This document shows positions 8,584-21,643 of a stretch of 23,126 nt of DNA, in pieces. The notes beneath the pieces were generated by a model that ran no database searches, had not been told where the DNA came from, and saw nothing but the letters and a program-made list of their open reading frames with translations. Position 1 is the stretch's first letter. The number at the start of each line of letters is the position of its first letter. The position numbers and the translations under genes are program-made. The DNA comes from a virus: the IMG/VR virus record IMGVR_UViG_3300045135_000244, positions 1-23,126 of that record. One strand, written 5' to 3'.

Positions 8584-9249
8584 TTATAAAGGATTGCCTT
8601 TTGAGTCTCTTAATTTATATTTTTGTGCTGTCTGACATTTAAAACATTCTCCACAATACCATTGATCTGAGATACAACTTCGGACTAATTTTTTTAAATC
8701 CATTTCTAAAGAGTCCCAAGCTTCTTTTTTTGTTTTAAATGCATCTAGTTCTTTTCCTGCAAAATTTAACCTTGGTGTACAATATTCTGCTGGTTTACTA
8801 GAAAACTTAGTTGCACATTCCATCCACATGCTCAAGCCTTCTCCATTTAAATTATCTTCAGTATCTTCTCCATCTCTACTTTTTACCACTTCGTTTGTGT
8901 AACTAAAGTTCCCCGTCCACATCCTAGGAATATTGTAGTTGTGACAAAACATTGATCCAAAGAAAGCACACCATTCATGATCTTTCGCAAAGTATTTTTC
9001 TCGATCTGGGTTATTTAAGCTTGCAAATATAGAGGCATGAGAGTAATGAAAATCACCATACTTTTCATACATGTATTCTAGAACTGATTTTACTGCTTTA
9101 GCTTGCTCATCTGCCTTTTGTCTTTCATTTACATCCCACCCCATTTCAATATATAAAACTCGAACTTTTTTCTTTTGCTCTAAAAAATATTTTAATAAAA
9201 TGGTGCTATCGGGTCCACCTGAAAACAATATTAAGTCTGTTGTATCCAT
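8584..9249 (-). CDS. QueC-like PP-loop ATPase (adenine nucleotide alpha hydrolase superfamily)
   Basis: The 221-residue protein has the PP-loop signature SGGPDST at residues 10-16, just after a short hydrophobic strand. It also has four cysteines near the C-terminus at 192, 199, 202 and 205 (C-x6-C-x2-C-x2-C), the pattern that binds zinc in QueC. QueC converts carboxy-deazaguanine to preQ0 using ATP and ammonia, and phage homologues feed tRNA queuosine or 7-deazaguanine DNA modification. Length fits QueC (about 220-230). The central region (MWTGNFSYTNEVV onward) is not one I recognise as QueC, so another ATP-activating PP-loop function is possible. No QueD, QueE, FolE or DpdA gene is in the window. 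It closes the oxygenase block. AGGGAG lies 7 nt before the ATG. Confidence 0.85.
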   Translation of the reverse strand: MDTTDLILFSGGPDSTILLKYFLEQKKKVRVLYIEMGWDVNERQKADEQAKAVKSVLEYMYEKYGDFHYSHASIFASLNNPDREKYFAKDHEWCAFFGSMFCHNYNIPRMWTGNFSYTNEVVKSRDGEDTEDNLNGEGLSMWMECATKFSSKPAEYCTPRLNFAGKELDAFKTKKEAWDSLEMDLKKLVRSCISDQWYCGECFKCQTAQKYKLRDSKGNPL

Positions 9250-9253
9250 TTAT

Positions 9254-9817
9254 TTACTCCCTTGGGTAGGTACATATACTTGCACAAATTCTTCTGTTTG
9301 TGTCTGTTTGCACAATGCCACTATGTTCATAAACATTACTAAATAGCACAGCACTATTTCTGAAAGAAGGAACATCAACATCTGCTATTCTTGTACCACC
9401 ATTGCAGTTAGTAAAATTCAATATAATTGAACTAGCTCTTTGATCTGGTACCAATAATCCTCTTTCAGACCCTACGTCATAATGTGGTGTAGCAATTATT
9501 TTTTTATTTTGGTTTGTGTAGCAGTTTAAATTTATTCTTAGAACATCACAATTAAATTTGTCTTGTATAGCTTTAACTACAGGTTTCCATGCATCGTGTA
9601 CGTTTTCTTCTATTTGTCCATAATGTTTATGATATGCAAAATGATACCATGCATAAGTACCATACTCTTGATCACCATTATCATAGGCAGGATGACAACT
9701 CCAATCTCTCCATATCCAGTTTATTTCATTTGAAAGCACATATTTTTCTAAGCTATCATATGCATCTTCTTGTAGAAAAGGCTTAAAAAAAACGTATTGA
9801 GGATAAGTTAAGATCAT
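9254..9817 (-). CDS. 2OG-Fe(II) oxygenase-like protein, 187 aa
   Basis: The C-terminal half shows the double-stranded beta-helix arrangement of 2-oxoglutarate and Fe(II)-dependent oxygenases. An HxD pair is visible at H112-D114 (TPHYD), followed by strands (ASSIILNFTNCNGGTRI), a distal histidine H165 (YEHSG), and R175/R176 (NRRI) about ten residues later for 2-oxoglutarate. Such enzymes hydroxylate amino-acid side chains, nucleobases or small molecules; the substrate here is not evident. The N-terminal 70 residues are rich in Trp, Tyr and His. It is the last of seven consecutive oxygenase-like genes and is 3 nt from the previous stop. It shares motif architecture with its neighbours but little obvious sequence identity, so it is not a recent duplicate. 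Confidence 0.85.
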   Translation of the reverse strand: MILTYPQYVFFKPFLQEDAYDSLEKYVLSNEINWIWRDWSCHPAYDNGDQEYGTYAWYHFAYHKHYGQIEENVHDAWKPVVKAIQDKFNCDVLRINLNCYTNQNKKIIATPHYDVGSERGLLVPDQRASSIILNFTNCNGGTRIADVDVPSFRNSAVLFSNVYEHSGIVQTDTNRRICASICTYPRE

Positions 9818-9820
9818 TTA

Positions 9821-10447
9821 TTAAACAGCTTTCCAATTACTAGATTGTTTGTCAAAGTTATAAGTATACCATCCAGTGAGTATCCATTTTTCATTAGAGA
9901 TTGGTGGGTTTCCTCTATGGGTGTGTGTGAAATCAGATGGGAACACACAAAGACATCCTTGTCTAGCTGGAATTCTGACTCCTTGGTACAAAAATTCTGT
10001 CTCACCACCCTCTTCAACATCATTTAAAAAAATAGTCCAAACTAAAAATCTGGTTCTTTCAGCCAAATCTTCAAAATGCCAACTATGAAACCCCATACCT
10101 TTTTCTGTTTTTTGTAACTTTATCTGACCAAAATCAACATTTTGTGCCATAAATGTTTCTTTAATTATTGGATATCTATCTGCATATACATTCAAAGCTT
10201 CACTTAATATAAACCCAATTTTATTAACTAGCGTACCATTACCCTTAAGTTCTAACAACTTCAGTGTAAAGAGACCATCATATAATCTATCTTGTCTTGT
10301 TGCTTCATTTACTTGTGTCTTTAAAATTAAATCAGTGTTTGCATAATGTTGTTTATAATACTCTTCTACTTCTGGTATCTGGTTTATTATTCCATCACAA
10401 TCTTCTTTACTTAAAACATCATGAATTAACATTATTGAGTTACTCAT
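9821..10447 (-). CDS. 2OG-Fe(II) oxygenase-like protein, prolyl-hydroxylase type, HxE variant
   Basis: The 208-residue protein has a well-formed oxygenase core: FHSWHFED at residues 120-127, strands FLVWTIFLND, then GGETEFLY (147-154), RIPARQGCLCVFPSDFTHTH (158-177) and a final strand WILTGWYTYNF. The GGETEF and P-x-x-G-x-hydrophobic-FP elements are typical of the prolyl 4-hydroxylase branch. The expected HxD appears as H124-x-E126, a substitution that some family members tolerate. Distal ligands are H175 or H177, and the 2-oxoglutarate salt bridge may use K187 or R178. Cyanophages and marine phages commonly carry this branch; substrates are mostly unknown. The ATG shares a base with the upstream stop. 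Confidence 0.88.
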   Translation of the reverse strand: MSNSIMLIHDVLSKEDCDGIINQIPEVEEYYKQHYANTDLILKTQVNEATRQDRLYDGLFTLKLLELKGNGTLVNKIGFILSEALNVYADRYPIIKETFMAQNVDFGQIKLQKTEKGMGFHSWHFEDLAERTRFLVWTIFLNDVEEGGETEFLYQGVRIPARQGCLCVFPSDFTHTHRGNPPISNEKWILTGWYTYNFDKQSSNWKAV

Positions 10448-11061
10448 TACTTTATATCCCTGCTTTCTTCTATATTTAATATATCATTCAATCTGTGTTC
10501 GTTTTTAGATATTACTGGGATTGGGTTTAACATATCCATTTTATAACCTTCTTTTATACCAGCACCAAAATAATTAAAATTTATTGTAATTCTATACGAT
10601 GCATCTGTAGGTGAAGAGCTAGAATGCATACTTACTGGATCGAACAATAATAGCCTATTTTCAACACACTCAATTTCTGTTCCATCTGCCATAGTCGTTG
10701 GAGCGTTACATGTGTTTACAAAAAACAGTGCTCCCTGATGCTTGAATTGAGAATCGGCATGAGGAGCATGATGAGATACTTCACCTGTTCTGCTAGGAAA
10801 ATAAAGGTTTGCTTTAATTCTAAACAGACCTTCAATATATAATTTAGATGTAATAGACAAAAACGGTTTTCTATCTACAATCTCTTGCCATCCATCATCA
10901 TATGCATGATAGATAGATGTTGCAAAATACATATCATCATTACGTTCATCAAAACCATTTATTCTTGGAGACATTCTCCAAGGAAAAGCTTCTTCTAAAT
11001 AGCCTTTTATATTACCAAACTCACTAGGTTTTAGAAAATTGTCGTAAACCACATAATACAT
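10447..11061 (-). CDS. 2OG-Fe(II) oxygenase-like protein, 204 aa
   Basis: The metal-binding set is visible as H101-x-D103 (APHADSQ), distal H146 (VSMHSS) and R157 (YRITINFNY), separated by a beta-strand core (GALFFVNTC and RLLLFDP). I start the gene at the ATG at 11061 because a consensus AGGAG lies 7 nt upstream. An earlier in-frame ATG 15 codons away lacks a site and would overlap the previous gene by 35 nt. The preceding N-terminal stretch YYVVYDNFLKPSEF is the usual 'hydrophobic strand then FL' opening of this superfamily. The C-terminal 40 residues after the core are variable and charged. It belongs to the seven-gene oxygenase run; substrate unknown. Confidence 0.86.
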   Translation of the reverse strand: MYYVVYDNFLKPSEFGNIKGYLEEAFPWRMSPRINGFDERNDDMYFATSIYHAYDDGWQEIVDRKPFLSITSKLYIEGLFRIKANLYFPSRTGEVSHHAPHADSQFKHQGALFFVNTCNAPTTMADGTEIECVENRLLLFDPVSMHSSSSPTDASYRITINFNYFGAGIKEGYKMDMLNPIPVISKNEHRLNDILNIEESRDIK

Positions 11062-11068
11062 AATATAT

Positions 11069-11073
11069 CTCCT
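11069..11073 (-). promoter_or_regulatory. Ribosome binding site AGGAG deciding the start at 11061
   Basis: Minus-strand AGGAG lies 7 nt before the ATG at 11061 and overlaps the TAG stop of the upstream oxygenase gene. It is the best site in the neighbourhood. It argues for a 204-residue product rather than the 219-residue extended frame. Confidence 0.8.
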
Positions 11074-11635
11074 ATCTAAAATTGGGGCCGTGCACCCAAC
11101 ACACAAGACTGTACCTTGTTCCTTTTGTTACTGGAACTACACCATGTTTCATATAAGATGGGAAAAATATTGCAGTTCCTTGTTCCATTGAATCTTCAAC
11201 TATAAATTTATCTTCGTCATCTGGAAACTGGAATGTTCCACCTTCATAATTATCTGGGTGACTTAGTTGTATAGATAAAGATAACTTTCTTACTGTTTGG
11301 TCTGGAGGTATATCCATATACTGTCCATCTTCATGAGGTTTGTAAAAGCCTTGATTGCTTTCATCATATTTTGTTATTTGAAAAGGTTCTGGGTCTCCTA
11401 AATCATAATGGTAAAATTCTTGATTGACTTTATTTATCAATTCTAAAACTGGTGTGTATAAATCTAAATATCTTACTACGCCATTTAACCATGCAACTTG
11501 GCTTTTTCTTATGGTGCTGTTTCTTCCACCACCACCAATCTTACCTTCTTCTAATCTAGGCTTTGCAACCTCTATGATTGTGTTGCATAAGTCTGCACTT
11601 AATGCTTTTTTTGCTACTATTATATTTCTTTTCAT
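11072..11635 (-). CDS. 2OG-Fe(II) oxygenase, prolyl 4-hydroxylase/PiuC (PKHD) type
   Basis: This is the most canonical oxygenase of the set. Residues 98-104 (YKPHEDG) supply H101 and D103. SIQLSHPDNYEGGTFQF gives the GG-x-F strand, GTAIFFPSYMKHGVVPV gives H164, and TRYSLVCWVHGP gives R174 and the closing strand. This matches the prolyl 4-hydroxylase alpha-subunit/PKHD hydroxylase family (about 190-230 residues; 187 here). Family members hydroxylate proline or related side chains or small molecules; the phage substrate is unknown. The N-terminus contains a Gly/Arg loop (GGGGRNST) and the WLNG segment often seen in PKHD proteins. A GAGG site lies 6 nt upstream. It abuts the next gene at 11636 directly. 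Confidence 0.92.
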   Translation of the reverse strand: MKRNIIVAKKALSADLCNTIIEVAKPRLEEGKIGGGGRNSTIRKSQVAWLNGVVRYLDLYTPVLELINKVNQEFYHYDLGDPEPFQITKYDESNQGFYKPHEDGQYMDIPPDQTVRKLSLSIQLSHPDNYEGGTFQFPDDEDKFIVEDSMEQGTAIFFPSYMKHGVVPVTKGTRYSLVCWVHGPNFR

Positions 11636-12328
11636 TTATATCCTCGCCATTTCTGATACTGGAAAGTAAGGTGCAAGTATGTCTTCAAAGAAAGTTATAA
11701 ACATAACTCTTTCATCGCTTGGTTTCATGCTATATAAAGCTCCATGAGGTGTTGCACCATCAAATCCAATTAATTTATTGTATGTTGAATTATAAACACA
11801 TTCTGTTTTGTATTGGTCTAGTTCTCTGTTGAACACTTCATAGTATTCATCAAAATTTAAATTGGGGTCTCTATTATAGTAAGCGTTTTTGTATTTAGAA
11901 CTTACTCTAACGGAATTAAATTCATTCTTAACAATGTCTTTTTTTGAGTATGTAACTGTTCCACAGTTATCTTGTTTTGATAAATACACTATAGCCATAA
12001 ACTTAGATTGAGCATCATTATGTATCCAACCTTTTCCTGGATTTTGTGTGTTTTGTATTTCTGCCTCAACATCTTCGTATCTTATTTTTTGAAAATGACT
12101 TTGTGCATTCCACTTTATATTCTGTGAAACTTTGTAGTCTGGATAAAGTAGTCTTATTATTTTAGCATTGATTTCCATAAAAACACTATGTTCATAGTCT
12201 GTTTCTGGTGTGGCTCTAGACCCTGGAAAATTACCATACGGATTTTTGTAATTTAATTTATCTGCAAATTCTCTTATACAATCTGGGTTATTAAAAAAGT
12301 TTAAAACTTGTATACTAGGAAAATTCAT
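11636..12328 (-). CDS. DUF6445-like 2OG-oxygenase-fold protein, paralogue A
   Basis: The 230-residue protein shows the pattern I associate with DUF6445: an N-terminal 'FFNNPD---R' segment, NFPGSRA at residues 33-39, GWIHND at 100-105, AIVYLSKQDNCGTVTY, then YNKLIGFDGATPHGALY and RVMFITFF. H103 and D105, H195 and R207 sit where a 2OG-Fe(II) triad and 2-oxoglutarate arginine would be, so a catalytic oxygenase is likely, although the family has no assigned reaction that I know of. The adjacent gene upstream is a gapless paralogue at about 55 % identity by hand count, including all four of these residues. No convincing ribosome site precedes the ATG, so translation may be coupled to the upstream gene ending 6 nt before. 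Confidence 0.85.
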   Translation of the reverse strand: MNFPSIQVLNFFNNPDCIREFADKLNYKNPYGNFPGSRATPETDYEHSVFMEINAKIIRLLYPDYKVSQNIKWNAQSHFQKIRYEDVEAEIQNTQNPGKGWIHNDAQSKFMAIVYLSKQDNCGTVTYSKKDIVKNEFNSVRVSSKYKNAYYNRDPNLNFDEYYEVFNRELDQYKTECVYNSTYNKLIGFDGATPHGALYSMKPSDERVMFITFFEDILAPYFPVSEMARI

Positions 12329-12334
12329 TTCACA

Positions 12335-13027
12335 CTATATTCTATTCATTTCAGGTACAGGATAATATGGAGCAATCAAACCATGAAAGAAACTAATAAA
12401 GATTAGACGTTCTTCCCCTGGTTTTAAGTTATAGAGAGCTCCATGAGCATTACCACCATCAAAACCTATCATTTTATTGTATGCAGAATTAAACAAACAA
12501 TCTAACTTATACTGATTCAAATGCTCGTTCAAATAGGCATAGTACTCGTCTAATTTTAAATTTGGATCTTTTCTATAGTATGCATCTTTATAGTATGGAT
12601 TTGCTTTTACTGACTTAAAGTTACTTTTTGCCTCATCTTTGTATGTGTATAATGCTGTTCCACAATTTTCATGTTTTGATAGATATATAATTGATGTAAA
12701 TTTAGATTCATGATCGTTATGTATCCAACCTCTACCCGGGTTTTCACAATTCAACATGTGTGCTTCAACGTCTTCATATTTTATTTTTTGAAAATATGAA
12801 TGTGCATTTATACCTACAGTCTGAAATACTTTAAAATCAGAATATAATAATTTTACAATTTTAAGATTTATTCTTTGAAAAAAATCATGATCAAAATCAT
12901 TTTGTGCTAATGCTCTTAGTCCTGGATAGTTTCCAGGTGGTTTTTCAAAACGTAGTGTTTCAACATAGTCTACAACAGAATTAGGGTTTTGAAAGAAATC
13001 ATTTACTTGCAAGCTTGGAAAGTTCAT
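12335..13027 (-). CDS. DUF6445-like 2OG-oxygenase-fold protein, paralogue B
   Basis: Start at the ATG at 13027 gives 230 residues beginning MNFPSLQV, matching the length and start of paralogue A; an in-frame TTG two codons earlier is less likely. Key residues align without gaps: GWIHND (H103, D105), NCGTALYT, YNKMIGFDGGNAHGALY (H195) and ERLIFISFF (R207). Most of the difference lies in the N-terminal 50 residues and the 125-175 region, while metal-site strands are conserved, which suggests both copies are active and may have different substrates. The start is 2 nt after the stop of the upstream oxygenase. Function is inferred from fold motifs only. Confidence 0.85.
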   Translation of the reverse strand: MNFPSLQVNDFFQNPNSVVDYVETLRFEKPPGNYPGLRALAQNDFDHDFFQRINLKIVKLLYSDFKVFQTVGINAHSYFQKIKYEDVEAHMLNCENPGRGWIHNDHESKFTSIIYLSKHENCGTALYTYKDEAKSNFKSVKANPYYKDAYYRKDPNLKLDEYYAYLNEHLNQYKLDCLFNSAYNKMIGFDGGNAHGALYNLKPGEERLIFISFFHGLIAPYYPVPEMNRI

Positions 13028-13029
13028 TA

Positions 13030-13566
13030 TCAATCACCCATTTGCACATATAAACTTGGTCTTTCATCAAATTGATACCTAGGATAGTATTGTCCGTTTT
13101 TTTCTATCCAATGTAAAAATACTTGATAATGTCTTTCGTAAGGCAGTTCATGTCGCCAGTGTTCTTGTTCCATACCTTTGTAAAGAAGAGCTTGACCGAC
13201 ATTCAAAATATATTTATCGTCTTCTGCATAGAAAGCCCAATCATCACCCCCTCTACCACCTATGTTCAATGTTAGACTAACTTCACAGGAGTTCCTATCT
13301 TTATGTGGAGGACAACATTGATGTTTGAAGTAGCATCTCCAAAATGAATATGTAGGCACAAGCTCTTTACCATATGCTTCCTCAACTTTAGGTTGTAGGT
13401 AGTGTAGTAATAGCTCCATAGGTGGGTCTGAAAACATTTCACATGTATTAGCGAAAGTAGAACCTTCTGGGGTTCTACCAACTAAGTTGTTATCAATTAG
13501 ATAATCTATGTGTGTTTTATATAGCTCGACTTGGTCTTTTGTAAGACAATCAATTATTTTATTCAT
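13030..13566 (-). CDS. 2OG-Fe(II) oxygenase-like protein, 178 aa
   Basis: The core is recognisable from CCPPHKDRN (H88, D90), CEVSLTLNIGGRGGDDWAFY strands, LNVGQALLYKGMEQEHWRHE with H136 or H139 as distal ligand, and ERHYQVFLHW with R145. This is a compact version of the oxygenase fold with a short N-terminal helical part. It is the first gene of the seven-gene oxygenase block. No Shine-Dalgarno sequence is seen before the ATG. Instead a -10-like TATATT ends 6 nt upstream, so the transcript could be leaderless. The upstream gap of 50 nt is one of the larger gaps in this packed region. Substrate unknown. Confidence 0.84.
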   Translation of the reverse strand: MNKIIDCLTKDQVELYKTHIDYLIDNNLVGRTPEGSTFANTCEMFSDPPMELLLHYLQPKVEEAYGKELVPTYSFWRCYFKHQCCPPHKDRNSCEVSLTLNIGGRGGDDWAFYAEDDKYILNVGQALLYKGMEQEHWRHELPYERHYQVFLHWIEKNGQYYPRYQFDERPSLYVQMGD

Positions 13567-15250: not shown

Positions 15251-16249
15251 TTAGTTACCTCTTAGTTCGTTTATTTCTTGTTTTAATTCCTTGATTGCTT
15301 CAATCAATACCGCGGTAAGTTTAGCATAGTCAACTGATTTTGTCTGCATTTCATCATTTGCAGTTAATACAACTTCTGGAACAATCTCTTCTATGTCTTG
15401 TGCTAAAACACCAATTTTTAATTTGGCATCTTCTTGATCACTTCTTCTATAATAAACACCTTGCATTCTCATAACTTTATCAAGACCATTCGATATATTA
15501 GAGATATCGGTTTTTAATCTTTTGTCTGAGAAAGCAGTGACATCATCATTAAATGTAGCGGCACCAGCAGCAGACATGTCTAATGTCATGGCAGTTATTG
15601 TAGAACCACCATCGTTGCCTTTCACTATAAAATCTTTATCTTGAACCTGTGTGTTAAAGATTGCATTGGAGTCAGCCATACCAAGATGTATTACAGAAGT
15701 TCCACCATCTTTAAACAAAACATCTCCACCATCTGCATCTATTACAATGTCTGCGGCAGAATCAAATGTCATATCACCAGAGTTTGTTTTTACTGTACTA
15801 ACATTTACAGAACCACCAGATAAATCTAAATCTACAAAAGCATCTACAACGGCTGCACCAGATCCTGCACCATCTAAGTAAACACACTTTGCATCTCCTG
15901 GTCCTATCGTTACGTTTGCACCAGAACCTTGTGATATAATTATATTCTGTGACCCACTTGTTGCATTCTCAATGATATGCACTCTTTTCATTGTGTTCGG
16001 GCCGATAGTAATTGTGCAAGCAGAATCTAGTGTTCCAGTGTATTTTAAGAACAAGGCTCTTCCAGCATCTGAAGACCCATCTGCTATCGTAGTCGTATGT
16101 GTGTCTGCATTTGTTGTTATGGCTTCTGTTCCATAACCTAATGCTTCACCAATCAACTCTAAGTTTGTATTAGTGGATGTACCCCAAGTTCCAGATTCGT
16201 CACCTGTGGTGATCTCTTTTAATCTAAGATTATTTACATATGTTGCCAT
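15251..16249 (-). CDS. Tail fibre/spike with C-terminal S74 intramolecular chaperone domain
   Basis: From the ATG at 16249 (overlapping the upstream TAA by one base) the protein has 332 residues; a 7-codon extension exists but lacks a site. Residues 1-40 (ATYVNNLRLKEI then SGTWGTSTN) form a conserved fibre N-terminus. The middle is beta-rich with repeats like IVIDADGGDVLFKDGG. Residues about 241-332 are a peptidase S74 intramolecular chaperone domain: FSDKRLKTDISNI, IGVLAQDIEEIVPEVV, VDYAKLTAVLIEAIKELKQE and a final coiled coil. In this family the domain trimerises, helps the fibre fold and then cleaves itself just before the Ser of the SD pair, here S241. The mature fibre would then lose about 92 residues. 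The neighbours are the repeat fibre upstream and the adhesin downstream. Confidence 0.93.
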   Translation of the reverse strand: MATYVNNLRLKEITTGDESGTWGTSTNTNLELIGEALGYGTEAITTNADTHTTTIADGSSDAGRALFLKYTGTLDSACTITIGPNTMKRVHIIENATSGSQNIIISQGSGANVTIGPGDAKCVYLDGAGSGAAVVDAFVDLDLSGGSVNVSTVKTNSGDMTFDSAADIVIDADGGDVLFKDGGTSVIHLGMADSNAIFNTQVQDKDFIVKGNDGGSTITAMTLDMSAAGAATFNDDVTAFSDKRLKTDISNISNGLDKVMRMQGVYYRRSDQEDAKLKIGVLAQDIEEIVPEVVLTANDEMQTKSVDYAKLTAVLIEAIKELKQEINELRGN

Positions 16250-17607
16250 TATGCCGCCTTCTCTACCCAATTTGCCAGTTGATCTGGCTCAATTAAACTA
16301 TAGACTTGTTCCTCACCAGTTGCTCCAGTGACACTTAATCCTGTTAAAGATAACACAGAATTAGCAGCTATGGCAAGAGTACCTGATGAAATTGATAAGC
16401 CTGCTAATGTTACGGCAACACCCGCTCCTGCCGTTACAGTTTCTTCACCTAGTGCTGTTGTTCCAAGAACTGTTGTAACTGGTGCTCCAGTTGTAGTTTG
16501 TACTGTATAAACAATAGGAGTATTGGCTTGTCCACCCATTCCCGAATGGTTGGTACAATAATAATATAAGGTCGGAGCATCTGTCGCTACCGTGATTTCT
16601 GTGTAAGAACCAGAGTCACCAGCGTTTCCATAAGTTGTTACACCAGTTGTGTATTCAGTTCCTCCTGCATGTATACCATTTGACGTTGTTGATAGTCTTA
16701 ATGGGTGTCCGCTATTACTACTATCGCTTTGATCAAATCTGTAGGTATTACCTTCAAACAGTTCTAATGTGTCTTGTTGTACACCATCAATGAAATATTT
16801 ATTACCTCCAGCAGTTGATACAACTGTGACTGTTTTTGTTATTGTTGTAGCAGAATATCCACTTATTAATATAGAAGCAGAAACACCAGTAGGTGAAATT
16901 AAAGCAGTACCTACAACTGCTTCATCACCAATATTTACAGAACCAGTTAATCCTGTTTCTTCTACTATAGCTCCTGCAGCAGCAAGAGCATTACCAAGAG
17001 CCGTGGTTCCCGAAACACCAGTAACACTAAATGTACATGTTCCAATAACTGTTGGGTTATTAGATTGACCAGTGGCTTCCAAACCGGTTATTGGAAGAGT
17101 TTGTCCTACATCAGCAAATACACCTCCACCCCATATATGATCACCCCAAGCAGAACTACCCCATCCAGATAGAAATCCAGAGGTTGCTTCTAGTCCAGTA
17201 ACAGAAACATTTACTGGGATTTTGACTAATACACTATTTACGGCTGTGGTAGCAGAGACACCTGTTACAGTTACGTCTGTAGAACCACCTATTGTGGTTG
17301 AGCCTACAGTAGTGGTAGCAGATAGTCCAGTAGTACCAGTATTACTGTCTCCGTCAAAAGTAACTGTGCCAACGGATCCTGTTGTTGAAACACCCGATGT
17401 AAGAAATGCAAACAGAAATGTTAATCCAGCAGAATTAACAACACCAGTTGCTTCTAATCCAGTTTCAACTACTACACTAGTTCCAGTTACCCCTTCTTCA
17501 CCAACGGCAGAAGTAGCTGCAACACCAGTAACACTTACATCAGCATCTACAAATCCTCCCCAAAAGGAGGATCCCCAGGTACCATCACCCCAACCGCTAG
17601 TAGCCAT
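16249..17607 (-). CDS. Repeat-containing tail fibre protein with an embedded cupredoxin-like domain
   Basis: The 452-residue protein contains about nine copies of a loose motif TG-[VL]-x-[AG]-T (for example VTGVAATSAVG, VTGVSATTAVN, VTGLEATSG, VTGVSGTTALG), spaced 15-40 residues apart, and two WG-rich blocks with WGG (residues 6-18 and 149-161). Between residues about 257 and 370 the repeats are interrupted by a different domain with NTYRFDQSD, SGHPLR and YYYCTNHSGMGG, which resembles a small blue-copper (cupredoxin) fold with H301, C351, H354 and M357 as candidate ligands. The C-terminus (LIEPDQLANWVEKAA) is helical and may anchor the next fibre. It is the first of three consecutive fibre-type genes. 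Its start lies at the foot of a hairpin spanning the upstream stop. Virion location is inferred. Confidence 0.86.
   Translation of the reverse strand: MATSGWGDGTWGSSFWGGFVDADVSVTGVAATSAVGEEGVTGTSVVVETGLEATGVVNSAGLTFLFAFLTSGVSTTGSVGTVTFDGDSNTGTTGLSATTTVGSTTIGGSTDVTVTGVSATTAVNSVLVKIPVNVSVTGLEATSGFLSGWGSSAWGDHIWGGGVFADVGQTLPITGLEATGQSNNPTVIGTCTFSVTGVSGTTALGNALAAAGAIVEETGLTGSVNIGDEAVVGTALISPTGVSASILISGYSATTITKTVTVVSTAGGNKYFIDGVQQDTLELFEGNTYRFDQSDSSNSGHPLRLSTTSNGIHAGGTEYTTGVTTYGNAGDSGSYTEITVATDAPTLYYYCTNHSGMGGQANTPIVYTVQTTTGAPVTTVLGTTALGEETVTAGAGVAVTLAGLSISSGTLAIAANSVLSLTGLSVTGATGEEQVYSLIEPDQLANWVEKAA
16498..16839 (-). other. Cupredoxin-like domain with a potential type 1 copper site inside the fibre gene
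   Basis: This segment encodes residues about 257-370 of the repeat fibre. H301 lies in SNSGHPLR after a Ser/Asn-rich strand. C351, H354 and M357 lie in YYYCTNHSGM, giving Cys-x2-His-x2-Met, the spacing of amicyanin (CTPHPFM). The His-Cys-His-Met set is what type 1 copper proteins use. I see the ligands in sequence; copper binding is inferred. Confidence 0.6.
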
Positions 17608-19077: not shown

Positions 19078-19758
19078 TTATTGTCTTTCTTGTACACGAA
19101 AATTAAGATTAAAACTTAATATTATTCTATCATTAACAGATTTATTTGCCAAAGTTTGATGAGGAAGCCAACCCGGAAAAAGAACCAATAGTCTTTCTTC
19201 TACTGGAACATTGACATTTACTCCACCACCAAATGGAAAGTTTTGATGTTCTTCACTTATGTGCTCACCATACAGATTAACCATGCTTTTAGCTATCCAT
19301 GCAGGGTCAGTAAAAATAATATCAGAAGCACCTTCTTCTGCTTGAACATAATAAACACCACTTATTAAACAATTTCCATGAACATGTTGTGGTATATAGC
19401 CACCTTTTGGATAAAAATTTGACCAAAGATTACCAATAGAAATATTAATGTTAGTCATGTCATGTGATTCTGAAAGCATATGTCTTGAAAAACCACATAT
19501 AAAATTAACACATTCGTGCCATTCTGGAACTTTCTTCAAATCTTCTGAGAAAAAAGTTGTCACTCCATCTCTATCTTTTTCTGCTTGATTGTCAGACCTC
19601 TTACCATAGCCCCAACTGTCAGACATTAATGCATTTGTTTCTGGCTTCTGTTTCCATTTATAACAAAGTTGTTTAATTTTTTCATGAAAAACTTTATTTT
19701 CATGACTTCCTTGATAGATAGGAATAGAAAATATATCTTTTCTAAATTGATTTTGCAT
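19078..19758 (-). CDS. 2OG-Fe(II) oxygenase family protein (TIGR02466/2OG-FeII_Oxy_5 type)
   Basis: The 226-residue protein contains NLWSNFYPKGGYIPQHVHGN then LISGVYYVQAEEGASDIIFT, ERLLVLFPGWLPHQ (residues 188-201) and DRIILSFNLNF (210-220). The 'H-x-H----LSGVYY ... I-F-DP ... LFP-WL-H ... RI-LSFN' arrangement is characteristic of the TIGR02466 putative oxygenases abundant in marine phages. Candidate ligands are H125/H127 and H200, with R211 for 2-oxoglutarate. The usual HxD acid is not evident next to the first histidine, as in many members of this subgroup. There is no ribosome site before the ATG, but a sigma70-like promoter ends 5-7 nt upstream, suggesting a leaderless transcript. Substrate unknown; the downstream Rossmann-like gene is a likely partner. 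Confidence 0.88.
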   Translation of the reverse strand: MQNQFRKDIFSIPIYQGSHENKVFHEKIKQLCYKWKQKPETNALMSDSWGYGKRSDNQAEKDRDGVTTFFSEDLKKVPEWHECVNFICGFSRHMLSESHDMTNINISIGNLWSNFYPKGGYIPQHVHGNCLISGVYYVQAEEGASDIIFTDPAWIAKSMVNLYGEHISEEHQNFPFGGGVNVNVPVEERLLVLFPGWLPHQTLANKSVNDRIILSFNLNFRVQERQ

Positions 19759-19794: not shown

Positions 19795-20433
19795 TTATTT
19801 GGTAGGTAGACCTCTTCTATAAGAATCTAAGTTTTCTTGACCTTCTGCATATAGTTTTAGTCTTTGAATAGCTTCACCAAATCTACTATTGTATAGTTGA
19901 AGTACATCATTTTCACCTTTCATAAAGGTGTATGCTTCTACAAGACATGCATATAAAAGAGCATCTGGAGCATTTGTACTTATCCAAGTACTTCCAGAAT
20001 CATCTGTTGTAAGTGATGCAGGTCTATAATAATAGTGTAATTCTACTGCAAAACCAGTGCTTGGAGTTGGAGCAACTATAAAATTATCTACATCAAAAGA
20101 TGCATAGTAGATAGGAGATCCTGTTGATGTTGGATCAGCAGTATATTCTTGAAGAAAATTTACATCTTTTTGAAGAAGAAAAACATTTTCGTTACTGGCA
20201 TTTACATAAGATAAGGAATAAGTGGCTAAATAGTCAGAAGGCTTCTGTAAAAACTTATTATCTGCTGTCATTGTTCCAGTAACATTTTTTCTGAAATAAT
20301 CTAAATCAACAAGTTTGAATATTCTCTCTTCTGCATTTTTGATGAAAAAATCTATCTCATTAACAAAAGTTGTTTCATCATTTTCTGTCCAATCTTGTAT
20401 GGACTGTTTTAATGTTGTGTATGTAAAACTCAT
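19795..20433 (-). CDS. Head-tail adaptor protein (SU10-type/gp4-like)
   Basis: This 212-residue protein begins FTYTTLKQSIQDWTENDETT, followed by a helix with FIKNAEERIF (residues 29-38). That start is typical of the adaptor family of short-tailed phages such as SU10, whose ring bridges portal and tail nozzle. The middle is beta-rich with PSDYLATYSLSYV and SPIYYASFDVDNFIVAPTPS, and the C-terminal helical part (ALLYACLVEAYTFMKGENDV onwards) ends in a flexible tail. Length fits the family. ATGA overlap with the upstream stop implies coupled translation, and a GGTGA-like site lies 7 nt before the ATG. A second adaptor-like gene lies 1 kb upstream, so one may be the gp4-like and the other a different ring component. 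Confidence 0.88.
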   Translation of the reverse strand: MSFTYTTLKQSIQDWTENDETTFVNEIDFFIKNAEERIFKLVDLDYFRKNVTGTMTADNKFLQKPSDYLATYSLSYVNASNENVFLLQKDVNFLQEYTADPTSTGSPIYYASFDVDNFIVAPTPSTGFAVELHYYYRPASLTTDDSGSTWISTNAPDALLYACLVEAYTFMKGENDVLQLYNSRFGEAIQRLKLYAEGQENLDSYRRGLPTK

Positions 20434-20747
20434 GATGTACTCACCGTCACTTCTCCAAGGCCTGTAGTTGCCGTGAAGTTTGTTAATTTCTTACCTATTA
20501 TACCATCACCTGCATTTGTGTATACTATGAATGACACAATATCTGTATCTTGATTAGGTCTAGGTTGAAACAAGGCTGTTGGATCTGGGCCAGGATAATT
20601 AGGCTCTAGTTGTGGATGTTTAGCCTCATACTCATCTGGGCCAACCTTTAATCCATTCCATTCCGTTCTCATTTCTCGTAAACGGTAACGAAAGCCAGAT
20701 CGATCTGAATAGCCCCATGCTTTCTTACCCGATGCAAACCTAGCCAT
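20430..20747 (-). CDS. Conserved small phage protein between the two adaptors, 105 aa
   Basis: It starts MARFASGKKAWGYSDRSGFR and continues with RLREMRTEWNGLKVGPDEYE and AKHPQLEPNYPGPDP, a strongly conserved block in uvMED and pelagiphage-type genomes. The C-terminal third switches to beta-rich Thr/Val sequence (FTATTGLGEVTVSTS) similar in style to the end of the 99-aa protein at 6363..6662. The N-terminus contains many Arg/Lys and Trp, which suggests binding to nucleic acid or to the portal/adaptor ring, but this is speculative. It overlaps its upstream gene by 8 nt and its downstream gene by 4 nt. No function assigned. Confidence 0.85.
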   Translation of the reverse strand: MARFASGKKAWGYSDRSGFRYRLREMRTEWNGLKVGPDEYEAKHPQLEPNYPGPDPTALFQPRPNQDTDIVSFIVYTNAGDGIIGKKLTNFTATTGLGEVTVSTS

Positions 20748-20977: not shown

Positions 20978-21643
20978 TTAATACCTCAAATATGAAATAC
21001 TAGGAGTTAGTTTTAATGGTGTACTGTTTGCATCTTCTGACATCGCTCTTTGAAATTCTTCTTCATAGAGTGTTTTTAATATTTGTATTCTGTCAGGTGC
21101 TTTCTTTATAGCTATATAGTAAGCAAGTCCTGCTGCCATACATGGTAAAAATCTAAAAGGTGCATCTGTTGTATTCACCAAAGAATCTGCATCTTGAATA
21201 CGTCTTACATAGTAGTAAACAAGAGTATATGAGTCATCTGGTGTAGACCACAAAGTTATTGTCGGTGTTGTTTGCCTGTCATAAAAGTATTGACTTGGCT
21301 GTCCACTATTACTTTTGTTTGGTATTCGTAAATACTCACCACGGCTCATTTGAGTTAAAGTAAAGTCTGTGCCAGAACTGTTTCGTAAAACAACTTCTAA
21401 TAAGTCTACAAACTCACTGTCTAATGTATAAGTAGCTGTACCAGATGTAACTGCTTTTGTCTCTTGTGTAACTGTCCACATATTCAAACCTCTGTTTGCC
21501 CAATCAGCAAACATAAGATTTAGTGAACGTCTGGCAGTCTTGGCATCATAGCCAGTTCTCATCTCTAAGCCACAACGCTCATAGGCTTCTTCTATTAGTT
21601 CTGCGACATCTAAGTCGAAATCTCTTGAATTTGATGTAGCCAT
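20978..21643 (-). CDS. Head-tail connector protein, P22 gp4-like
   Basis: The N-terminal helices read VAELIEEAYERCGLEMRTGY and ARRSLNLMFADWANRGLNMW (residues 12-60), a pattern shared with P22 tail accessory factor gp4 relatives ('I-EA-E--G-------A--SLN-M--DW-N-G--LW'). After this comes a beta segment (ATYTLDSEFVDLLEVVLRNS, PTITLWSTPDDSYTLVYYYV) and a C-terminal helical part (PCMAAGLAYYIAIKKAP, EEEFQRAM). The 221-residue length is near that expected. It would sit under the portal and extend the tail neck. An AAGAAG site precedes the ATG. It follows small basic proteins and leads the adaptor group, the usual order in podoviruses. Confidence 0.87.
   Translation of the reverse strand: MATSNSRDFDLDVAELIEEAYERCGLEMRTGYDAKTARRSLNLMFADWANRGLNMWTVTQETKAVTSGTATYTLDSEFVDLLEVVLRNSSGTDFTLTQMSRGEYLRIPNKSNSGQPSQYFYDRQTTPTITLWSTPDDSYTLVYYYVRRIQDADSLVNTTDAPFRFLPCMAAGLAYYIAIKKAPDRIQILKTLYEEEFQRAMSEDANSTPLKLTPSISYLRY

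Follow-up and report, generated by a model that had tools for sequence, protein, structure and literature searches.

A mobile module of marine phage fibre and baseplate proteins, predicted to be a cupredoxin with type 1 copper ligands

The fibre gene and its embedded domain

The stretch of DNA analyzed here, referred to as the window, encompasses 23,126 nucleotides of marine phage sequence (positions 1 to 23,126 of IMG/VR record IMGVR_UViG_3300045135_000244), and the element of interest is a domain embedded within a fibre-like protein encoded on its minus strand. The domain is very probably a cupredoxin, akin to the blue copper proteins found in plants and bacteria, and harbors an intact set of type 1 copper ligands, H301, C351, H354 and M357, as judged from its predicted fold and from the conservation of these residues. 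On sequence comparison it belongs to a family of mobile modules found in the fibre and baseplate proteins of marine phages and also in the lipoproteins and giant surface proteins of marine bacteria and archaea. The features of the locus are as follows, with ligand frequencies given for complete viral copies as defined in the next section.

16249..17607, minus strand: 452-residue fibre-like protein, an open reading frame (ORF) that translates without an internal stop
16519..16845, minus strand: cupredoxin-type domain, residues about 255-363, from AlphaFold2, Foldseek, VIA-align and alignments
16705..16707, minus strand: H301, first predicted copper ligand, in the motif H-P-L/F; His in 99.2% of 263 complete copies
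16555..16557, minus strand: C351, predicted thiolate ligand; Cys in 99.2% of 263
16546..16548, minus strand: H354, predicted copper ligand; His in 99.2% of 263
16537..16539, minus strand: M357, predicted axial ligand; Met in 95.8% of 263
15251..16270, minus strand: tail-fibre-type gene next downstream, encoding an S74 endosialidase-chaperone domain (PF13884, E 7.2e-16; PHROG tail-fibre families)

The 452-residue protein begins with an N-terminal motif rich in tryptophan and glycine and continues into TG-x-x-T repeats, which give way to the cupredoxin domain, resume after it and are followed by a C-terminal tail. The same kind of architecture is found in relatives of the protein (L001, L002, L003, L014 and L052; L numbers denote individual loci). 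An initial annotation of the window had placed the four ligand residues within this ORF, in a domain interrupting TG-x-x-T-like repeats; the codons, checked in the sequence, and the translation bear out both statements. The C-x2-H-x2-M spacing given there for C351, H354 and M357 is also correct, and the ligand loop of amicyanin has the same spacing. The gene lies directly upstream of the S74-chaperone gene, which places it in the tail-fibre region. Its designation as a putative tail-fibre protein is suggested by these neighbors and by the PHROG tail-fibre families, whose matches to the protein fall over or around the domain.

Conservation of the predicted copper ligands

Among the closest viral relatives of the domain, the best 80 of at least 596 confirmed stretches, C351 and H354 are retained in 80/80 and M357 in 79/80, with Leu in the remaining copy. 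The first His is present in 79 of the 80, four of which escaped the search pattern and were read by eye, and is replaced by Asp in the other. A broader survey made use of a profile built from a hand-picked alignment of 26 sequences, termed A1, with which 274 loci and the window were searched, giving 456 hits, 328 of them distinct. The 327 distinct hits outside the window comprise 263 complete copies, with no gap at the four ligand columns, and 64 partial copies, with a gap in at least one of them. The ligand set of the complete copies is His-Cys-His-Met (HCHM) in 250 and HCHQ in ten, with DCHL, HSDM and DATM found once each, and the four ligand columns rank 1, 2, 4 and 6 of 106 by conservation. 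The ranks are again 1, 2, 4 and 6 in a bias-reduced set of 152 complete copies, from which all copies with any ligand-bearing search peptide and all hand-fetched isolates had been removed (140 HCHM, 10 HCHQ, 1 DCHL and 1 HSDM). When the 64 partial copies are added and their gaps counted against conservation, the ranks become 1, 6, 8 and 12. Since the four residues were named before any alignment was made and yet rank at the top, their conservation is not a matter of chance.

Within A1, where the relatives are 39-78% identical to the window domain, no column is invariant apart from Y39, F41 and the four ligands. This alignment left out PSS2 gp080 (L091), a known loser of three of the four ligands, and the case for conservation therefore rests on the ranks over all copies; with PSS2 gp080 included (27 sequences), only Y39, F41 and M107 are invariant, and H51, C101 and H104 stand at 90% or more. 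The 25 relatives in A1 are also counted among the 274 loci, and since every member of A1 keeps the ligands, the profile built from it favors intact copies, gives lower scores to those without ligands and may overlook some of them. The rows of a further alignment, A3, were chosen from copies that keep HCHM or HCHQ, so that conservation within it proves nothing.

The same ligand set is found outside the viral contigs, with HCHM present in 70 of 73 distinct copies on bacterial and archaeal contigs, and in 23 of 26 once copies with a Cys-bearing search peptide are set aside. The 17 isolate loci (L082-L098) contribute 19 complete distinct copies, 18 of them HCHM and the other PSS2 gp080, together with five partial ones. 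Further isolate copies that were read directly all keep the four ligands (9/9), including those of the lake actinobacterial phage DSL-LC01 and the podovirus P-GSP1. Free substitution of Cys, His and Met among homologues, named in the initial annotation as an outcome that would tell against a copper site, is thus seen in neither viral, cellular nor isolate copies. Met, Gln and Leu are all natural at the axial position of type 1 sites. All ten copies with Gln belong to loci L179-L258 and by eye occupy one paralogous position, and hence may represent a single event. A fifth conserved His, H313 in the motif THGG, was also considered as a ligand and dropped, as only 121 of the 328 distinct hits have His at this position and 129 have a gap.

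Predicted fold

The domain was modelled with AlphaFold2 from 74 aligned sequences, those of the window and of viral contigs, with model residue 1 corresponding to residue 246 of the protein. The predicted structure is a beta-sandwich with nine strands of at least three residues, a mean predicted local distance difference test score (pLDDT) of 89.8 and a predicted template modelling score (pTM) of 0.83. C106 ends the strand 102-106, M112 lies just before the strand 113-117, and H56 precedes the strand 58-61. The Cys, the second His and the Met are therefore found on one loop of the model and the first His immediately ahead of a strand that comes earlier in the chain, a layout that is typical of cupredoxins.

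Comparison of the model with the PDB by Foldseek gave eight matches at an E value of 0.001 or below, and all eight are rusticyanin, among them 1rcy at E 1.9e-4. Multicopper oxidase, AcoP, pseudoazurin and amicyanin come next, and semaphorin and immunoglobulin (Ig) chains lie lower among the 50 matches listed. With VIA-align the top match is 2dv6, the cupredoxin domain of a copper nitrite reductase (Z 8.9, root-mean-square deviation (rmsd) 2.9, 103 residues aligned), and rusticyanin 2cal (Z 8.3, rmsd 3.4, 107 aligned) and auracyanin A (Z 7.7) are also found; the 50 matches listed are all copper proteins, with the proviso that Z values under 8 can be non-specific. Sequence identity to the blue copper proteins matched by fold is 11-19%. 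The alignment to 1rcy stops at residue 119 of the model and residue 155 of the chain, in each case seven residues past a methionine, Met112 in the model and Met148 in 1rcy, and this fits a superposition of the ligands. Met148 is the axial ligand of rusticyanin and is the residue mutated in the titles of some of the matched entries. Structure prediction, proposed in the initial annotation as a check, thus yields a cupredoxin-type sandwich with the predicted ligand loops placed as in cupredoxins, and together with ligand conservation it supports the core of that annotation, namely that the fibre-like protein contains a putative cupredoxin domain whose ligands are those of a type 1 copper site.

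Three BFVD entries described as 'Beta-sandwich' proteins and bearing pithovirus or marseillevirus names (A0A481Z6J5, A0A481YVH3 and A0A481Z7Q7) also match the model, at E 2e-6 to 4e-6.

Relationship to known copper protein families

Pfam, NCBIfam and phmmer searches against the PDB returned no cupredoxin hit for the window protein, and as these direct searches failed, the link to known copper proteins was made through profiles, intermediate sequences and fold. The Copper-bind family PF00127, which includes plastocyanin and azurin, is joined to the phage domain via relatives, the window domain itself being unmatched; a single one of the 26 A1 members reaches PF00127, at E 0.21. The intermediates are cellular. 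The domain of a Woeseiaceae lipoprotein, L306, is found by the phage-built profile at E 2.4e-29 (as L359) and, as an isolated domain, passes the PF00127 cut-off (24.5 bits against 21.2). The cellular domains L350, L351 and L357 score 28-34 bits with PF00127, and the phage profile finds them with E values between 8e-7 and 7e-8.

Profile-to-profile comparison by hhalign of A1 with a plastocyanin/pseudoazurin-type set gave a probability of 65% over 24 columns only. When an alignment of phage and bridging domains was compared with six marine plastocyanin- or pseudoazurin-type sequences, the match rose to 94% (E 1.3e-7, 70 columns), with the Cys, His and Met columns aligned with each other. This alignment of 14 sequences, with rows chosen by hand and all keeping the ligands, leaves as invariant columns only F41, H51, C101, H104 and M107.

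The likeness to rusticyanin, auracyanin, pseudoazurin, AcoP and amicyanin, in all of which the ligands follow the order His...Cys..His..Met, is one of predicted fold and of this ligand order, and to amicyanin, the partner of methylamine dehydrogenase, it extends to the spacing of the ligand loop. These are single-domain blue copper proteins, whereas the domain described here is carried within phage tail and baseplate proteins rather than as a free electron carrier. The first His is followed by Pro in the phage domain but by Asn in the plastocyanin/pseudoazurin-type set. Likeness to the copper nitrite reductases and multicopper oxidases lies in the best VIA-align match, 2dv6, and in the H-P start of the first ligand motif, the multicopper oxidases having the ligand motif H-P-x-H. 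In contrast to these enzymes, the phage module is a single domain with one predicted site, and no type 2 or type 3 copper ligands were noticed in it.

Distribution and change of carrier

The initial view of the domain as an isolated oddity is not sustained, as it is widespread on marine phage proteins and on proteins of cell-surface type. With the window domain as query, 92 of 50,697 phage records matched; these are cyanophages and phages of Prochlorococcus, Synechococcus, Pelagibacter and Methylophilales, along with four others that are marine, uncultured or unnamed. The C-terminal domain of P-SSM3 gp9 found 335 phage records, in 334 of which the match covers 80% or more of the query, and 18 of the 25 matches listed are labelled baseplate wedge tail fiber connector. 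A Bellamy tail-fibre domain found 36 phage records, and the record sets from the three queries overlap. None of 72,556 plasmid records matched the window domain (tblastn, E 1e-3). The lineages with the domain include pelagiphages, methylophages, T4-like cyanophages through gp9, and some podoviruses. Its carriers include the tail fibres of the pelagiphages and methylophages and the gp9-type baseplate connectors of the T4-like cyanophages, and they are variously labelled 'tail fiber', 'virion structural', 'hypothetical' or 'immunoglobulin domain'.

In cells, the domain is found at the C-terminus of proteins with a start that by eye is lipobox-like, from SAR86, SAR92 and Woeseiaceae (L306, L309, L311, L315, L326, L338 and L339). 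It is also found in a lipoprotein-like protein from an archaeon that includes a collagen-like stretch (L301), in giant repeat ORFs of Bacteroidetes (L285, L290, L319 and L328), and in a DUF4214 protein (L333). Some contigs filed as bacterial are phage-like, for example those with pelagiphage-type fibre ORFs, recognized by eye, in Pelagibacter single-cell genomes (L280, L289, L291 and L302).

Some carriers combine the domain with another of a recognized family. The SAR92 lipoprotein-like protein (L326, 3335-4312) consists of a phosphatidylethanolamine-binding-protein domain (PF01161) and a cupredoxin domain, and P-HM1 gp104 (L094, 2560-6243) has a subtilase domain (PF00082, E 3e-28) beside it, with a weak PF00127 match at 741-777 that falls under the cut-off.

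The protein that carries the domain changes even among close relatives. One alternative carrier has a homologue in the window in which the domain is absent:

20430..20747, minus strand: small structural-region gene, without the domain here, whose homologues in related phages carry the cupredoxin domain

Within the closest 80 loci, the domain lies in the homologue of this small gene in 31, being C-terminal in 28 of these, and in an ORF that matches the TG-repeat fibre in 30 (21 N-terminal and 9 internal), although such matches involve low-complexity repeats and some may be loose. It is found in a homologue of a stabilisation protein in two loci, at the N-terminus of a homologue of 20978-21643 in one, and in ORFs that have no window homologue at E 1e-3 in 16. 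Gene order around the carriers is largely kept among related loci, and the domain remains 68-82% identical to that of the window (best 80 of at least 596) despite the change of carrier; at L011 it is 81% identical, compared with 52-88% for the neighboring genes. The simplest explanation for a module that swaps its carrier yet keeps its metal ligands is that it has a function of its own.

Altered and ligand-free copies

The Cys and the second His are lost jointly in five copies, those of PSS2 gp080 (D-A-T-M at the ligand positions), L172 (H-S-D-M) and three flavobacterial proteins, the last lacking the first His as well. L275, with Ser-Gln-Leu in ligand positions, is one case in which loss is not all-or-none. 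Many cyanophage baseplate-type ORFs contain a further copy in which Gln or Asn replaces the first His and no C-x2-H-x2-M lies nearby. The 46 partial hits from L179-L258 are mostly ligand-free in appearance, as 34 of them have no C-x2-H-x2-M within 150 residues; in another 11 a second domain interrupts the copy, and C-x2-H-R-Y-M is found downstream.

The arrangement of some of these cyanophage ORFs (L244, L213, L205 and similar) is unusual in that one cupredoxin-like domain is apparently inserted in a loop of another, so that a complete inner His-Cys-His-Gln domain separates the outer His part from its downstream C-x2-H-R-Y-M, and another copy without ligands is found nearby. At the other extreme, PSS2 gp080 (L091, 2992-3327) is a stand-alone protein of 112 residues that consists of the domain alone and is encoded directly after the tape-measure gene.

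Proposed role of the predicted copper site and its alternatives

From the retained ligands and the predicted fold we infer that the domain binds copper, and regard this as highly likely. In the mechanism we propose, the exposed domain would take up one copper ion after lysis, and the metal would tie the H-P loop to the C-x2-H-x2-M loop, thereby locking the ligand end of the sandwich. The resulting rigid, metal-fixed face may both stabilise the protein and serve in contact with the host surface. Taken as a whole, the reading of a genuine cupredoxin, used as a mobile module with a copper-locked contact face rather than as an electron carrier, appears to us probable, and electron transfer is probably not the job of the domain.

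Several points weigh against this reading. Neither the window protein nor its domain matches any Pfam cupredoxin model, PF00127 included; a profile search of the PDB gives pseudoazurin at only E 0.046; and the whole L306 protein, at 20.4 bits, falls under the PF00127 cut-off of 21.2. A model of the full-length protein, built from six sequences, is useless (pLDDT 36.1). Phage assembly takes place in the cytoplasm, which contains little free copper, and loading with copper must therefore come later. The suggested contact role is drawn from the location of the domain. Finally, the ligand-free relatives in cyanophage baseplate-type proteins indicate that the fold can serve without copper, and copies with a long loop insert in L095, L260, L267 and L268 retain the Cys, and a His in a shifted position, yet carry Glu where Met is expected, so that loss of the site is not strictly all-or-none.

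Such copies lead to the likeliest of the alternatives, in which a cupredoxin-derived sandwich acts as a structural spacer and its His, Cys and Met are kept for packing or for another metal, such as zinc. Ligand-free and altered copies in cyanophage baseplate-type proteins, PSS2 gp080 and the flavobacterial proteins are in keeping with it, and the related suggestion in the initial annotation, of an ancestral site now used only as a fold, would suit some of these site-less copies, though it fits poorly with the ligands retained in the window domain. Set against a purely structural role, four chemically different residues are held at 96-99% in a domain that is otherwise largely variable, the axial place shifts mainly to Gln (10/263) or Leu (1/263), and zinc would need no Met or Gln partner. 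We consider a role of the fold alone unlikely.

A second alternative retains the metal and proposes a redox device, in which Cu(II)/Cu(I) cycling on meeting a reductant at the host surface triggers or reports attachment. Type 1 sites are electron-transfer sites in the known families, and the closest folds include the electron carriers rusticyanin and pseudoazurin. Yet the presence of the domain in unrelated carriers makes it ill suited to a fixed electron partner, and no partner protein, haem or second redox center was noticed among the scanned ORFs of the window, which were not the object of a dedicated search. This possibility seems to us improbable.

Less probable still, and in our estimation very unlikely, is that the fibre displays copper as bait so that metal-uptake receptors of the host dock to it. 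The idea would be a copper version of the iron 'Trojan/Ferrojan horse', which has been proposed for T4 and an Alteromonas phage (PMC11705849). There, tail fibres with HxH motifs, T4 gp37 and that of Alteromonas phage R22Y, are proposed to bind iron, the iron of T4 gp37 being reported from X-ray crystallography; the likeness to the present case is a metal on a phage fibre that is proposed to matter in the sea, whereas the metal and its ligands differ. The carriers of the cupredoxin domain are indeed labelled as tail fibre and baseplate proteins, but no receptor link was found among the data assembled here and the domain occurs just as readily on surface-type proteins of bacteria. Type 1 copper, moreover, is buried under its ligand loops, and a receptor would consequently see protein rather than metal.

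The annotation of two cyanophage carriers as Ig-like (PF07686, which we take to be an Ig family, in a note to P-HM1 gp104, and 'Immunoglobulin domain-containing protein' in MED4-213), with weak antibody hits by sequence and, for two cellular relatives that match PF00127, weak hits to Ig families as well (E 0.02-0.04), can be set aside as having almost no chance of being correct, given that neither the window domain (at E 1) nor P-HM1 gp104 (at E 0.01) has a Pfam Ig match and that the best fold matches are copper proteins. The Ig annotations perhaps arose because the sequence TLYYYC resembles the YYC strand of Ig domains. Phage Ig-like decoration domains are likewise mobile beta-sandwich modules found in many virion proteins; the present domain differs from them in its lack of an Ig match and in its conserved set of metal ligands.

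Other genes of the window

The initial annotation had also noted many Fe(II) enzymes in the same genome and had raised a speculative link between these and the copper domain. Iron enzymes are indeed predicted, as three of eight hand-picked ORFs match 2-oxoglutarate (2OG)-Fe(II) oxygenase models (9821-10447, 11072-11635 and 19078-19758), but 'many' is only partly right; one of the other candidates matches DUF6445 and the rest match only PHROGs with other labels. Nothing ties these genes to the cupredoxin domain, and the link is unsupported.

Seven small adjacent genes, some of them overlapping, occupy 9254-13566, and two of these match the 2OG-Fe(II) oxygenase models. Within the same region, 11636-12328 and 12335-13033 look paralogous, as both match phrog_1644 and the second also DUF6445. 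The gene at 8584-9249 encodes a PP-loop/QueC-like protein with Pfam matches below the cut-off.

Novelty and biological implications

The fold and the site are already known, and it is the use of this domain as a mobile module of phage attachment proteins that is apparently new. No description of a cupredoxin or copper module on phage attachment proteins was found in searches of open-licence papers, though one may exist elsewhere. The papers that did turn up include one on viral NirK and one on Borgs, and a paper on cyanophage A-1(L) does not contain the word 'cupredoxin' and uses 'copper' only for grids.

The broader proposal, that marine tailed phages of several lineages bear real type 1 copper centers on their attachment apparatus, with copper occupancy governing fibre stability or attachment to the host, is a tentative one and at present rather doubtful. 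On that proposal, phage particles would hold a considerable share of tightly bound copper in the sea, and the availability of copper would feed back on infection. Should the domain hold copper, the attachment proteins of very abundant ocean viruses would be copper proteins. The domain, for which the present labels are no more than 'tail fiber', 'virion structural' or 'hypothetical', would thereby gain a property, and the idea of iron in tail fibres would be extended to copper, tying phage attachment to the copper chemistry of seawater.

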